Below, one piece after another: positions 33,134 through 62,130 of a stretch of 64,000 bases of DNA. The notes under the pieces are model-generated. The model saw only the letters and a program-made list of their open reading frames with translations, made no database searches and had not been told where the DNA came from. This stretch comes from Pagrus major (taxonomy: Eukaryota > Chordata > Actinopteri > Spariformes > Sparidae). The translations under genes were made by a program, and so were the position numbers. The stretch lies in assembly GCF_040436345.1 (NCBI RefSeq), contig NC_133225.1, positions 27,380,040 to 27,444,039 of the forward strand, in the 5' to 3' direction. Each line of letters opens with the position of its first letter. The first letter of the stretch is position 1.

Positions 33134-42887
<9,754 letters not shown>

Positions 42888-43219
42888 AGACATTACATGA
42901 CACAGGCCTTGAGCCTCTTCTCCCACTGACATTTCCTCTATTCCCCCCCTCTCCTCATCGGGCTCCTCTGTCCCTTTTTCTTCCTTTTCCTCCACTTGTC
43001 ACACATGAATCCACTCCTTTTTGAATCCGTGTTTTTATTTTTAAAATTGCATCCTTTTATACCTGATTGTGTGCTGTTTTAATATGTGAGAGAACGGCAC
43101 GTTGAAGCAAATGAAGCACAATGTCTCTTGTTATTTGCGGCAGAGAGGAGAGTTTGGACTCTCAGCCAGTGTGAACCAGACATGCTGACAGAAGCTGCTG
43201 CTGCCACTTTGTTTACTGA

Positions 43220-43255
43220 AGGTGAGCTGCCATATCAGTGTGTATGCTGCCACCT
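43220..43255 (+). promoter_or_regulatory. meltf: Iron-responsive element-like hairpin 1 (meltf 3' UTR)
   Basis: Unpaired C at 43230; upper stem CATAT (43231-43235) with GTATG (43242-43246), including one T-G wobble next to the loop; loop CAGTGT. The lower stem pairs GCTG with CTGC (one T-T mismatch) and then AGGTG with CACCT across a single bulged A. This meets the canonical IRE rule of bulged C, five pairs and CAGUGN loop. Confidence 0.82.
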
Positions 43256-43532
43256 GTTACATTGCTTCAGTGGTGAGCGCGTCTCTGTCTCTCCAGAGCT
43301 AGTGTTTTACAAAGAGCAGACAATCTGATTTTTATCCTCACATGACCCCCAGATGTTTTAACTTCTGGTTTTTAAAAAAAGACTAGAACTGACCTGAGAT
43401 CAGCTCCGCCATTTTCAAAGGCTTCCTGTGAATATAGAAGTCAGATTGCCATTCTGCTCTGCTGCCATTTGCTCTGTGAGAACTGCTAACAAACACGGCC
43501 TTCCCTTACTTTGGGCTGTGTTTCTATGATAA

Positions 43533-43563
43533 GCTAATGCCATATCAGTGAATATGCACTAGT
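43533..43563 (+). promoter_or_regulatory. meltf: Iron-responsive element-like hairpin 2 (meltf 3' UTR)
   Basis: Unpaired C at 43540; upper stem CATAT (43541-43545) with ATATG (43552-43556), five Watson-Crick pairs; loop CAGTGA. The lower stem runs G-C, T-A, one A-C mismatch, A-T, T-A, C-G, G-T. Confidence 0.85.
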
Positions 43564-44282
43564 GTTGCCTCCACACAGAGCTGTGCTGAGGATGGTGTGA
43601 TAAAGAGTGACTGAGTGTTTGTCCAGAGGCTGTCTGCTTCATGTTTGCTCCTCAAATCCAGAAAAATCAAGAAGATAAATACTTTATTTGATCTGATTTA
43701 AGCTAATATTCAACTGAGCCCGCTTGCAGCTGCACATTGAATTATATTAAACAGCAAACCTCACATCGGCAACCACTTTTCTCACATTTAGTATTGTAAT
43801 GTATGATTTTCAACATATATGGAGTGAGTAACTCTGACACACTGGTCAGGATTGGTCAGATTTGGGGAGAACATAAAGGAAACATCCTGTGGTTTGTGCT
43901 GGAGAGTGAATGGGTGTTTGGATGGTTTAAGTCAGTCGGATAAAGACAACAAGCTTTAATTTGTTAGTGTAATTCCAGCTTTTACTGTGGAAAAAAGGCG
44001 GTTTTGTTTGTCTTAGTTACAAAATTGACTCCATTTTGATTTAAAAGGGGATTTAGCTTAAAATCTTTAGTAAAGCGAGAGTGTAAAAGGGAACAAAACA
44101 CAGTTAAAAGAAAATAATTGTTTCTACATGTCCTCTAACACGAACAGCTCACTCCAGAAGTGTCTCTTTCTCACTCGAGCTCATCATCTACTGTACACCC
44201 TGCTGCTTGATGCTATTTCCTGTTTGACACTGTTGATTTGGATGTGTATTTTCCTATGTTGAGAGATTTATTTTTATATGAA

Positions 44283-44315
44283 GTTCAGGTGCCATATCAG
44301 TGTATATGTACTGAC
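44283..44315 (+). promoter_or_regulatory. meltf: Iron-responsive element-like hairpin 3 (meltf 3' UTR)
   Basis: Unpaired C at 44292; upper stem CATAT (44293-44297) with ATATG (44304-44308), five pairs; loop CAGTGT. The lower stem is weaker: G-T, T-A, G-C, bulged G, A-T, C-G, T-A, then a further G-C across a bulged T. Confidence 0.83.
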
Positions 44316-44398
44316 TCATGCCGTCAGAAACGAATGCCTTCTCTTCCTCCTGATAGAGATTTATTTCTATGTGAAATGGAGTAACATGTAACTAATAT

Positions 44399-44428
44399 TT
44401 AGTTGCCAGGCCAGTGCGCCTGCACAAG
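44399..44428 (+). promoter_or_regulatory. meltf: Iron-responsive element-like hairpin 4 (meltf 3' UTR), covariant stem
   Basis: Unpaired C at 44406; upper stem CAGGC (44407-44411) with GCCTG (44418-44422), five perfect pairs; loop CAGTGC. The stem differs at three positions from CATAT/ATATG of the other hairpins, yet every change is compensated. The lower stem is G-C, T-A, bulged T, G-C, A-A mismatch, T-A, T-G. It lies 55 bp before the AATAAA. Confidence 0.83.
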
Positions 44429-44482
44429 TATTGCTACATAAAACTGCCGACTTGAGCTGTTTTCTGTGCTTTGCTCTAATGA

Positions 44483-44488
44483 AATAAA
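44483..44488 (+). other. meltf: Poly(A) signal, probable meltf transcript end
   Basis: Canonical AATAAA on the plus strand; cleavage would fall near 44500-44510, where a TG-rich stretch (tttgtgttcgagttc) follows. Confidence 0.65.
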
Positions 44489-44505
44489 GTTATGTACTGC
44501 AAGAC

Positions 44506-46315
44506 ATTTTGTGTTCGAGTTCATTTTCTGCAGATGTTTCAAACTGTTTCTCTCCTCAGATCAAACGGGTCATGTGAGTTTCCTTCACAGCTACTAGAAA
44601 CATTTTTTTCTATTTAATTTTTATCTTATGTTGGCAGAGATTAGATCTCCATTTACATCTTTCTATAACTGAGACACATTTGTTTTTTCCCTTTAATACT
44701 ACCAAATTATAAGATTACTAATTAGCAGTAAAATTTGTTCTTCTTTTATTTTGAAGTAGTTAAAGAAGAGCTGCAGCGCCGATTATTTTCAGAATTGATA
44801 AATCTGACTGGTATTTTCTTGAGTAATCCATACAACATCAGAAAACAGATGAAAAAGCTAAATTTGAAGCCCAAAGTTACAAAGTACATGTCCCTATATG
44901 TAAGCACAATAGTTATAAACATTACATATATTATTCATGGGTTAGCAGCTTGTGGAGGGCAGACAGAAGAGGTAACTCAGATCCGATCAGAAGTGTTGTC
45001 GATTGTAATTTATGTACGCAGATGTGTATCTTCTGAGATGTCTGCCATTTTTGCATGAGTGCATGACTCTGTGATGAATGTGCTGAGTTGTTTCTATTTC
45101 AGACAATCTTTGCACATGTGCTCGTATTACTGTGTTTTTAACTGCCATGTCTGGTTTGATGCACCAGTTCCCTTAATCCAAGTTTCTCCCACATGGGCAC
45201 AATTGAGCAACTTTTAACTTAATTAACATCAGTGATCATCAGTCCGCAAACCAAGATGTTACATTTTCTGACATTAGGACAAAAGAAGCAGCAGATTCTC
45301 ACATTTGAAAAGCCAAAACCATCAAATGCTTGCTTGAAAAATCACAAGGATTATCAATCGTCAAAATATTTAGGCTACCACAAAATTTTCGGACAATCTC
45401 CTTATCTATTAATCATTGCACTGCAGTAACTGATTGTCATGAGGAGCAATAAAACATCCTCTTATCCCCTGACCTCTTTTTAGATCATCTACAGTGTTTC
45501 ATATATTTGTTGTTATGAAAGCATTTGGACCATGAGTTACAACTGGAAGCAGTGAACTGTGAACTTCACTCCCTCTGACTGTAAATCTGACAATACTCTG
45601 ACAACACGATAAGCAAATCGCAGAGGTTGCAATTAATTTTGCTGCGGTATGCACATCTGACCCACATTTAAACACGTGTGTAAATGACTTTACAAATTCA
45701 TGCCCTCTTCCTAGTGTGACAGTCATGCTCGCCAATCAGACGTGGCCCAGGGCGACTGCGTATACATCAACCAACAACACGTGAAAACCAAGTAAAAATC
45801 TGATCCAGCAGTAACCTTGGATGATGTAGTAACAAAGAAAGGCAGCACTCACGTCATGTGGAAGTATTTTGGCTTCTAAGAGACAGACGTGCAACAAAAA
45901 AAGGTACTATGCAAGACCATTGTGTGTTTGTTATAAGTTGCAAGCTAACTGAAAAAAATAATAACGATGGTATATCAATGTGGTAATGCTCCATCATGTT
46001 TTAAATCTATTACACAGCGAATACTGAACTGAAGCTTGACTTAAAAAAAATGCAAATCAAATTGCAATCACAATATCGGTCAGAAAAATTGGATTAGAAA
46101 TTAGATCTTTTTCCCAAATTGTTCAGCCCTAGTCAACACCTAAATGGTTGCATTCACTCGAGCACACACAAATCTGTTGTAGTTTAACCATAAAAAAATG
46201 GAAATTCAGCTTCCATATATATAAACTCACTTTTTGTCCTGAAAGTTAACAATCAAAGACAAATTATATGAACTGACGCTATCTAGCAGTCAAAGTGCTG
46301 TTATAAATTATCATC
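44506..46315. other. Intergenic, meltf to ncbp2as2
   Basis: 1.8 kb, AT-rich, no gene recognised. In mammals PIGZ sits between MELTF and NCBP2-AS2; I found nothing resembling it. An open frame at 44735-45058 shows no domain. Confidence 0.65.
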
Positions 46316-61700: not shown

Positions 61701-62130
61701 TCTCTCGGGAGGTTTGTGTGGTATGTCAGCCCTCCTTCTTTCAGCAGATGACTGACTAAGATGAGAGAAAGTACCTGCTGTAACAGACAGGTGCTGTGTG
61801 GAGAACACAGCACGTATGGGAGGGTGAGCAGGAGAGGAGAGCGTACAGAGAAGGGAAATAAATTACATTTCTGAGAAGAGAACCTAATTTGACTCCTGGA
61901 ATACAGCCGGGGGGCAACATTAAATGCATTAAGAGCAAGTGAACAGCAAGCAGTTGTGTTATTACTGAGGGTTACAGGGAAATGACATTATTATAAATGA
62001 CTAATTGTCAAAAATGCACAGAATTTGTTTCCTTTCACAGGTCGCGGTCCAGGTAGTCGATCTACAGCAGCAGGGCCTGCTTAGTTACTGTTGCTATGTC
62101 TCGACCATTCTGTCTGCGTACTCTGTTACG

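Follow-up and report, generated by a model that had tools for sequence, protein, structure and literature searches.

A probable iron-responsive element array in the melanotransferrin 3' UTR of Pagrus major

Four hairpins with the form of iron-responsive elements (IREs) were found in the probable 3' UTR of the melanotransferrin gene (meltf) of Pagrus major, within the window, that is, the whole stretch of 64,000 bases that was analysed. It was concluded that this 3' UTR probably constitutes an array of four IREs controlled by IRPs in the manner of transferrin receptor 1 (TfR1). As judged from their letters, it is structure that makes these hairpins IREs, and not any descent of their sequence from the receptor IREs. 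Their IRE identity is considered likely, and the binding of IRPs to them is predicted.

Results

The melanotransferrin gene and its 3' UTR

The meltf coding region was located on the plus strand at 33134–42887, where 16 coding exons encode 722 amino acids and end with a stop codon at 42885–42887. The exons were placed with a human melanotransferrin probe and then joined at GT..AG sites, and all 15 introns of the assembly were GT..AG. The top PDB chain was human melanotransferrin (6xr0_M, 773 bits, residues 10–700); lactoferrins, serotransferrins and ovotransferrins among the PDB matches listed scored 457 bits or less. Among the best 120 of 1536 matches, the closest homologue was the melanotransferrin of a sparid, Acanthopagrus schlegelii (black seabream), with an identity of 89%. 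The last exon reads as encoding a hydrophobic GPI-type tail. The two transferrin lobes, the PDB and homologue matches and the GPI-type C-terminus bore out the naming of the host gene as melanotransferrin by the initial annotation. When meltf was looked for in viral contigs, no match was found.

In the N-lobe the iron-ligand Asp was replaced by Phe, and the Asp motif of the C-lobe was retained (positions 35505–35604 and 39734–39830 concern the N- and C-lobe ligands, respectively). Human melanotransferrin has lost the C-lobe motif and thus shows the reverse lobe pattern. For cod melanotransferrin, an intact C-lobe and an N-lobe devoid of both Asp and His are described in PMC3125230. The cod and Pagrus major proteins therefore have the same lobe preference, whereas the N-lobe His motif looks kept in Pagrus major.

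The probable 3' UTR was assigned to 42888–44505 of the plus strand. It starts directly after the stop codon, and cleavage would be expected approximately 10–25 bases past the AATAAA at 44483–44488, which lies 3' of hairpin 4 and is the sole AATAAA in 42888–44510. A possible earlier polyadenylation signal, ATTAAA, is present between hairpins 2 and 3 at 43746–43751, and its use would remove hairpins 3 and 4 from the mRNA. Further variant polyadenylation hexamers occur in 42888–44510. All four hairpins lie on the meltf strand, after the stop codon and before the only AATAAA, so that their proposed location in the probable meltf 3' UTR was upheld at the level of sequence, with a mature transcript presumably extending to 44.5 kb.

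Structure of the four hairpins

Re-reading of the sequence and a scan across the complete 64,000 bases returned the four hairpins at the same coordinates and with the same letters as originally described, all of them on the plus strand. Hairpin 1 (43220–43255) has a bulged C at 43230, an upper stem CATAT/GTATG, a CAGTGT loop and an extended lower stem. Hairpins 2 (43535–43561, bulged C at 43540) and 3 (44287–44313, bulged C at 44292) both have the upper stem CATAT/ATATG, with the loops CAGTGA and CAGTGT, respectively. Hairpin 4 (44386–44439, bulged C at 44406) combines the upper stem CAGGC/GCCTG and a CAGTGC loop with a long lower stem containing bulges. The distances between the successive bulged Cs were equal to 310, 752 and 114 bases.

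According to PMC8466369 and PMC12230718, an IRE is defined by an unpaired C at position 8, an upper helix of five base pairs and a CAGWGH loop, and further by an N7–N25 pair below the bulge and a lower stem. The bulged C, the upper helix, the loop and the N7–N25 pair were each present in all four hairpins. Five of five upper-stem pairs were formed throughout, as had been claimed, with one wobble in hairpin 1 and Watson-Crick pairs in the others; the stem letters of hairpin 4 differ, yet it pairs fully. A G stands 5' of the bulged C in every hairpin, and it pairs with the first nucleotide 3' of the upper stem (C, C, U and C in hairpins 1 to 4). The claimed lower stem was also recovered, with 3, 4, 4 and 2 in-register pairs among the first five in hairpins 1 to 4, respectively. 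Hairpin 4 thus has the weakest in-register lower stem (two of five pairs), and this was counted against the IRE reading. When bulges were allowed, hairpins 1 and 4 formed long stems of −12.9 and −15.4 kcal/mol. In addition, all four hairpins carry TG immediately 5' of the bulged C and an upper stem that starts with CA.

Loop position 19 is preferentially U or C, with A in 16% of 38 classic IREs, according to PMC8466369. Three of the four hairpins have U or C at this position; hairpin 2 has the less favoured A, which was counted against it.

The probability of folding within the full UTR was also calculated. The mean values were 0.68 and 0.76 for hairpins 1 and 4, and 0.06 and 0.01 for hairpins 2 and 3. 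The poor folding of hairpins 2 and 3 speaks against the IRE reading but was not used to discriminate, since six of ten receptor IREs of the same genome were also low, at 0.32 or less, the range for all ten being 0.02 to 0.99 (with receptor UTR ends of our own choice).

Rarity and copying

The scanner required a bulged C, a five-base-pair upper stem and a CAGTGH loop, all perfect, and was applied to both strands of the 64,000 bases. On the plus strand of the window only four perfect hairpins were detected, all inside 42888–44510 and spread over 1.2 kb. Among 20,000 dinucleotide shuffles of 42888–44510, none contained two or more hairpins and 72 contained one (mean of 0.0036), and 300 shuffles of the whole window gave a mean of 0.13 perfect hairpins on one strand. 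Hairpins 1–3 have a common core and may be mutual copies, so the strict independence behind the shuffle figure is doubtful. The stem of hairpin 4 is distinct, and even two independent matches within 1.6 kb would be rare.

One perfect IRE-shaped hairpin was observed on the minus strand within the same UTR (43834–43850), with the stem CTGAC/GTCAG, the loop CAGTGT and the first lower pair formed. Being antisense, it cannot be a meltf IRE; it may be a product of chance or a remnant, the two being indistinguishable.

The meltf 3' UTR stretch had one match in the 785,883,843 bases of the fish's own genome, in a single-copy search that passes over simple repeats and very common words. As this sole match was the UTR itself, a repeat origin of the UTR was rejected.

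In hairpin 4, three upper-stem pairs were changed on both sides relative to hairpins 1–3 and pairing was kept; with the lower stem included, two-sided changes were found at five of ten pairs. The covariation score was 0.467, compared to 0.261 in shuffles, and was reached by 9 of 500 of them, which with four copies makes a weak test, though its outcome has a consistent direction. When the partners were slid, the score was 0.150 or less. Hairpins 1–3 have an 11-base core and some of their flanks in common. Hairpins 2 and 4 agree at 10 of the 12 bases that follow the upper stem on its 3' side, and this was reached by 5 of 5000 random position sets; that figure is the best of five lengths. The remaining four lengths gave 21 to 128 of 5000, in two cases for other hairpin pairs. 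Taken from the letters, these data suggest copying within the UTR followed by divergence of the stem under pairing.

The sequence CCATATCAGTGNNTATG was found at eight places in the genome, three of which were hairpins 1–3, and a reversed-pattern control was found at none. Of the other five places, two had a mismatch and three formed all five upper pairs; in these three the pair below the bulge was missing, as judged by eye.

Covariance model searches

The initial annotation had called for a check against the Rfam IRE models, and this turned out negative: neither IRE_I (RF00037) nor IRE_II (RF02253) matched any of the four hairpins, either at the gathering score or at an E-value of up to 10. 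A search of the whole window with Rfam at E-values of up to 10 gave 26 matches, with no IRE match and none in the UTR; one Rfam search at E-values of up to 10 returned zero matches, chance ones included. IRE_I matched the ferritin IRE that was given as a control. After the two tfr1-like genes described below, IRE_II matched nine places, one of them below the cut-off, and these covered eight of the ten IREs found by the scanner (seven above the cut-off). The ninth place (31.1 bits; positions 1274–1304 of locus L024 on C21) was missed by the scanner and must therefore deviate, in its loop or its stem, from what the scanner requires. The failure of Rfam was not taken as disproof, because its models seem to be fitted to the ferritin and receptor IREs and also miss two of the ten receptor IREs, but it was still counted against the IRE reading.

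Two further covariance models were used. The broader one, which was made first, was built from nine human IREs; the other, R2, was built from 12 IREs of the fish's own genome. With the human-IRE model, hairpins 2, 3, 1 and 4 took ranks 2, 3, 7 and 12 among the 16 matches with E-values not above 10. Hairpin 4 was matched in part, and none of the four had an E-value below 0.03. Four of the 16 matches were nevertheless meltf hairpins on the correct strand, within a span that makes up 1.3% of the sequence searched. With the R2 model, hairpin 4 scored 9.8 bits (E-value of 6.9) and hairpin 1 scored 9.5 bits (E-value of 8.2), a shortened match of 9.3 bits overlapped hairpin 3 without its bulged C, and hairpin 2 was missed. 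These R2 scores gave no sequence kinship of the meltf hairpins with the receptor IREs. The antisense hairpin at 43850 ranked fourth with the human-IRE model, above hairpins 1 and 4, and third with the R2 model, above all four, and this was counted against the IRE reading.

The top place in the window for both models was at 62060–62086 of the plus strand, with a CAGGG loop; this match is probably due to chance.

Receptor and ferritin IREs of the same genome

When the genome was queried with a human TfR1 protein, receptor-type genes were found on C11, C21 and C19, together with one weak exon match on C2. For each of the three genes, approximately 9.9 kb beginning at its last coding exon was scanned. 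The same scanner detected four perfect sense IREs after the gene on C21, six after that on C19 and none after that on C11. We take the IRE-free gene on C11 to be tfr2-like and those on C21 and C19 to be tfr1-like. The six IREs of the C19 gene (minus strand) stand in groups approximately 760 bases apart, and four of them are detected by IRE_II. Neighbouring receptor IREs were mostly 38–98 bases apart, with wide gaps of 280 bases on C21 and 762 bases on C19.

The wider scan covered 39 of 50 loci from the fish's own genome, which came to 181,406 bases with overlaps counted; the remaining 11 had been picked by IRE or pattern or were copies of the window UTR, and were left out. The 23 perfect matches obtained came down to the ten receptor IREs plus a single C19 site, which lies opposite the gene strand with its N7–N25 pair unformed. 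The peptidase-like genes found through PF04253 were rejected, being unlike transferrin receptors as judged by eye, and the stretches of them that were scanned contained no perfect hairpin. At the other transferrin-family places, on C21, C6 and C16, no perfect hairpin was detected in the 3 kb taken from each; the C6 stretch still contains transferrin exons and hence is no test of the C6 3' UTR.

The claim of a TfR1-like array stood as regards layout, whereas the letters of the hairpins differ from those of the receptor IREs. Like the TfR1 3' UTR array, the meltf UTR contains several hairpins with a bulged C, a five-base-pair stem and a CAGTGH loop (four, against four and six after the tfr1-like genes), and the four meltf hairpins in 1.2 kb match a tfr1 array in count and extent. 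In contrast, TAT precedes the bulge in each of the ten receptor IREs and their upper stem begins with GG or AG, whereas the meltf hairpins have TG and a stem starting with CA, and IRE_II found receptor elements (eight of ten) only.

IRE_I gave two matches in the genome, both to ferritin-type IREs, and the one on C23 precedes a ferritin-like start. Both have TG before the bulge, which they have in common with the meltf hairpins along with the loop, the bulged C and the five-base-pair upper stem. The ferritin IRE differs in the letters of its upper stem and in being detected by Rfam IRE_I. It occurs as a single copy in the 5' UTR, where IRP binding blocks translation.

Aconitase-family matches were obtained on C10, C8, C20 and C23, and exons on C10 and C8 contain the stretch SGPKRPQDR. 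We assume this stretch to be a feature of IRP1 and IRP2, and the genes on C10 and C8 to be two IRP-type genes; the match on C20 presumably represents mitochondrial aconitase.

Discussion

In mRNAs with several IREs in the 3' UTR, the binding of IRPs in iron-poor cells blocks mRNA decay. On the basis of this established IRP/IRE system we proposed the same mechanism for meltf, and a TfR1-like function of the array is plausible. At low cell iron, IRP1 and IRP2 would bind the meltf hairpins and shield the mRNA from decay, and the protected mRNA would give rise to more of the GPI-anchored iron-binding protein. When iron is ample, the IRPs would release the hairpins and the meltf mRNA would be lost, as for transferrin receptor 1. 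Both the binding and the direction of control are inferred by analogy with TfR1.

Some of the evidence is also compatible with other explanations. The hairpins may be real IRP-binding IREs whose effect differs from that in TfR1, acting in a short two-hairpin form polyadenylated near 43746, or on localisation or translation rather than on stability. This is unlikely in our estimate, even though the ATTAAA at 43746 stands between hairpins 2 and 3, other single 3' UTR IREs have weaker effects, and the meltf spacing (310, 752 and 114 bases) is wide compared to the 38–98 bases that prevail in receptor arrays. The only AATAAA, however, is 3' of hairpin 4, and wide gaps also occur in the receptor arrays (280 bases on C21 and 762 on C19). 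We regard it as very improbable that the hairpins are part of a transcript other than that of meltf, for example a separate non-coding RNA or the RNA of an adjacent gene. They share the strand of meltf, follow its stop codon and precede its first AATAAA, and the nearest recognised coding segment downstream is on the minus strand at about 46.9–47.2 kb. That the transcript end is inferred, and that a perfect hairpin lies antisense at 43850 on the minus strand, speak for such a transcript.

The hairpins might instead be the leftovers of a duplicated hairpin sequence, not bound by IRPs and with their likeness to IREs unused. The 11-base core and some flanks common to hairpins 1–3, which are perhaps not independent, would fit this explanation, as would the weak or absent scores from known IRE models and the three outside places in the genome where this core occurs and the upper stem is fully paired. 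However, the pair beneath the bulge is missing at those three places (by eye), the loop and the bulge are intact in four of four copies, and hairpin 4 keeps its pairing despite three changed pairs, where neutral drift would tend to break pairs. The host gene, moreover, encodes an iron protein. Such an origin was considered quite unlikely, and the IRP-controlled array remained the preferred reading.

An extension of the preferred reading is that in ray-finned fish melanotransferrin belongs fully to the IRP regulon and carries an array of several IREs in its 3' UTR that is independent in origin of that of TfR1 and has grown by copying within the UTR. We hold this extension to be evenly poised between true and false. 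Under it, the unrelated stems and the ferritin-like TG before the bulge would give the array an origin apart from that of TfR1. If it is true, iron-poor fish cells induce a GPI-anchored transferrin with an intact C-lobe iron site, and a second receptor-like route of iron uptake or iron capture operates under the same switch. What melanotransferrin does physiologically is a matter of debate, and reportedly one review bears the title 'Melanotransferrin: Search for a function'. With an IRE array, the protein would be linked to the way in which fish cells sense iron, and IRP binding and the response to iron would offer a direct test of its function.

To our knowledge, transferrin receptor 1 is the only other case in which several IREs form an array in a 3' UTR. 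The iron-uptake gene DMT1 (SLC11A2) has an IRE in its 3' UTR, as meltf would. The DMT1 IRE contains an extra bulged base on the 3' side of the upper stem, according to PMC8466369, and no such bulge is present in the upper stems of the meltf hairpins.

The hope of the initial annotation that an IRE in melanotransferrin was new was weakened by a study of full-length transcripts of Atlantic salmon (MicroSalmon, 2021; PMC8544657), the available part of which gives meltf a 3' UTR IRE predicted by UTRscan. Salmon meltf is there one of nine iron-related genes among 43 with a predicted 3' UTR IRE, a list that includes two transferrin receptor 1 paralogues. The prediction concerns the same gene and the same UTR as in Pagrus major and amounts to a single table row with a UTRscan call. 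As far as the available part of PMC8544657 goes, it lowers the novelty of the present array and at the same time provides its sole cross-species support, namely a distant teleost with at least one predicted IRE. Besides this source, no IRE in melanotransferrin mRNA was found in the literature searched, which lay mostly outside subscription journals and was in part available as excerpts, and a word search of the main texts of PMC8466369 and PMC12230718 did not find melanotransferrin. In that literature, as far as it was accessible, the multi-hairpin array, its letters and the comparison with the fish's own tfr1 arrays were not found.

Two near-identical copies of a hairpin were also observed elsewhere in the genome, on the minus strand of C9 (positions 855 and 1501 of locus L030), 646 bases apart and opposite apparent exons of a nicotinic receptor gene. 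One of them carries the meltf core CATAT-CAGTGT-GTATG; as judged by eye, no pair is formed beneath the bulge.

Around meltf, open reading frames were observed on the minus strand at 24.5–26.2 kb and 46.9–47.2 kb, which by eye we take to be an Aurora-type kinase and an NCBP2AS2-like frame, respectively. On the plus strand, the open reading frame at 49.3–49.9 kb is presumably FKBP2-like and the exons at 52.8–53.6 kb presumably NCBP2-like (by eye), and the exons upstream of meltf were assumed, also by eye, to resemble dlg1.
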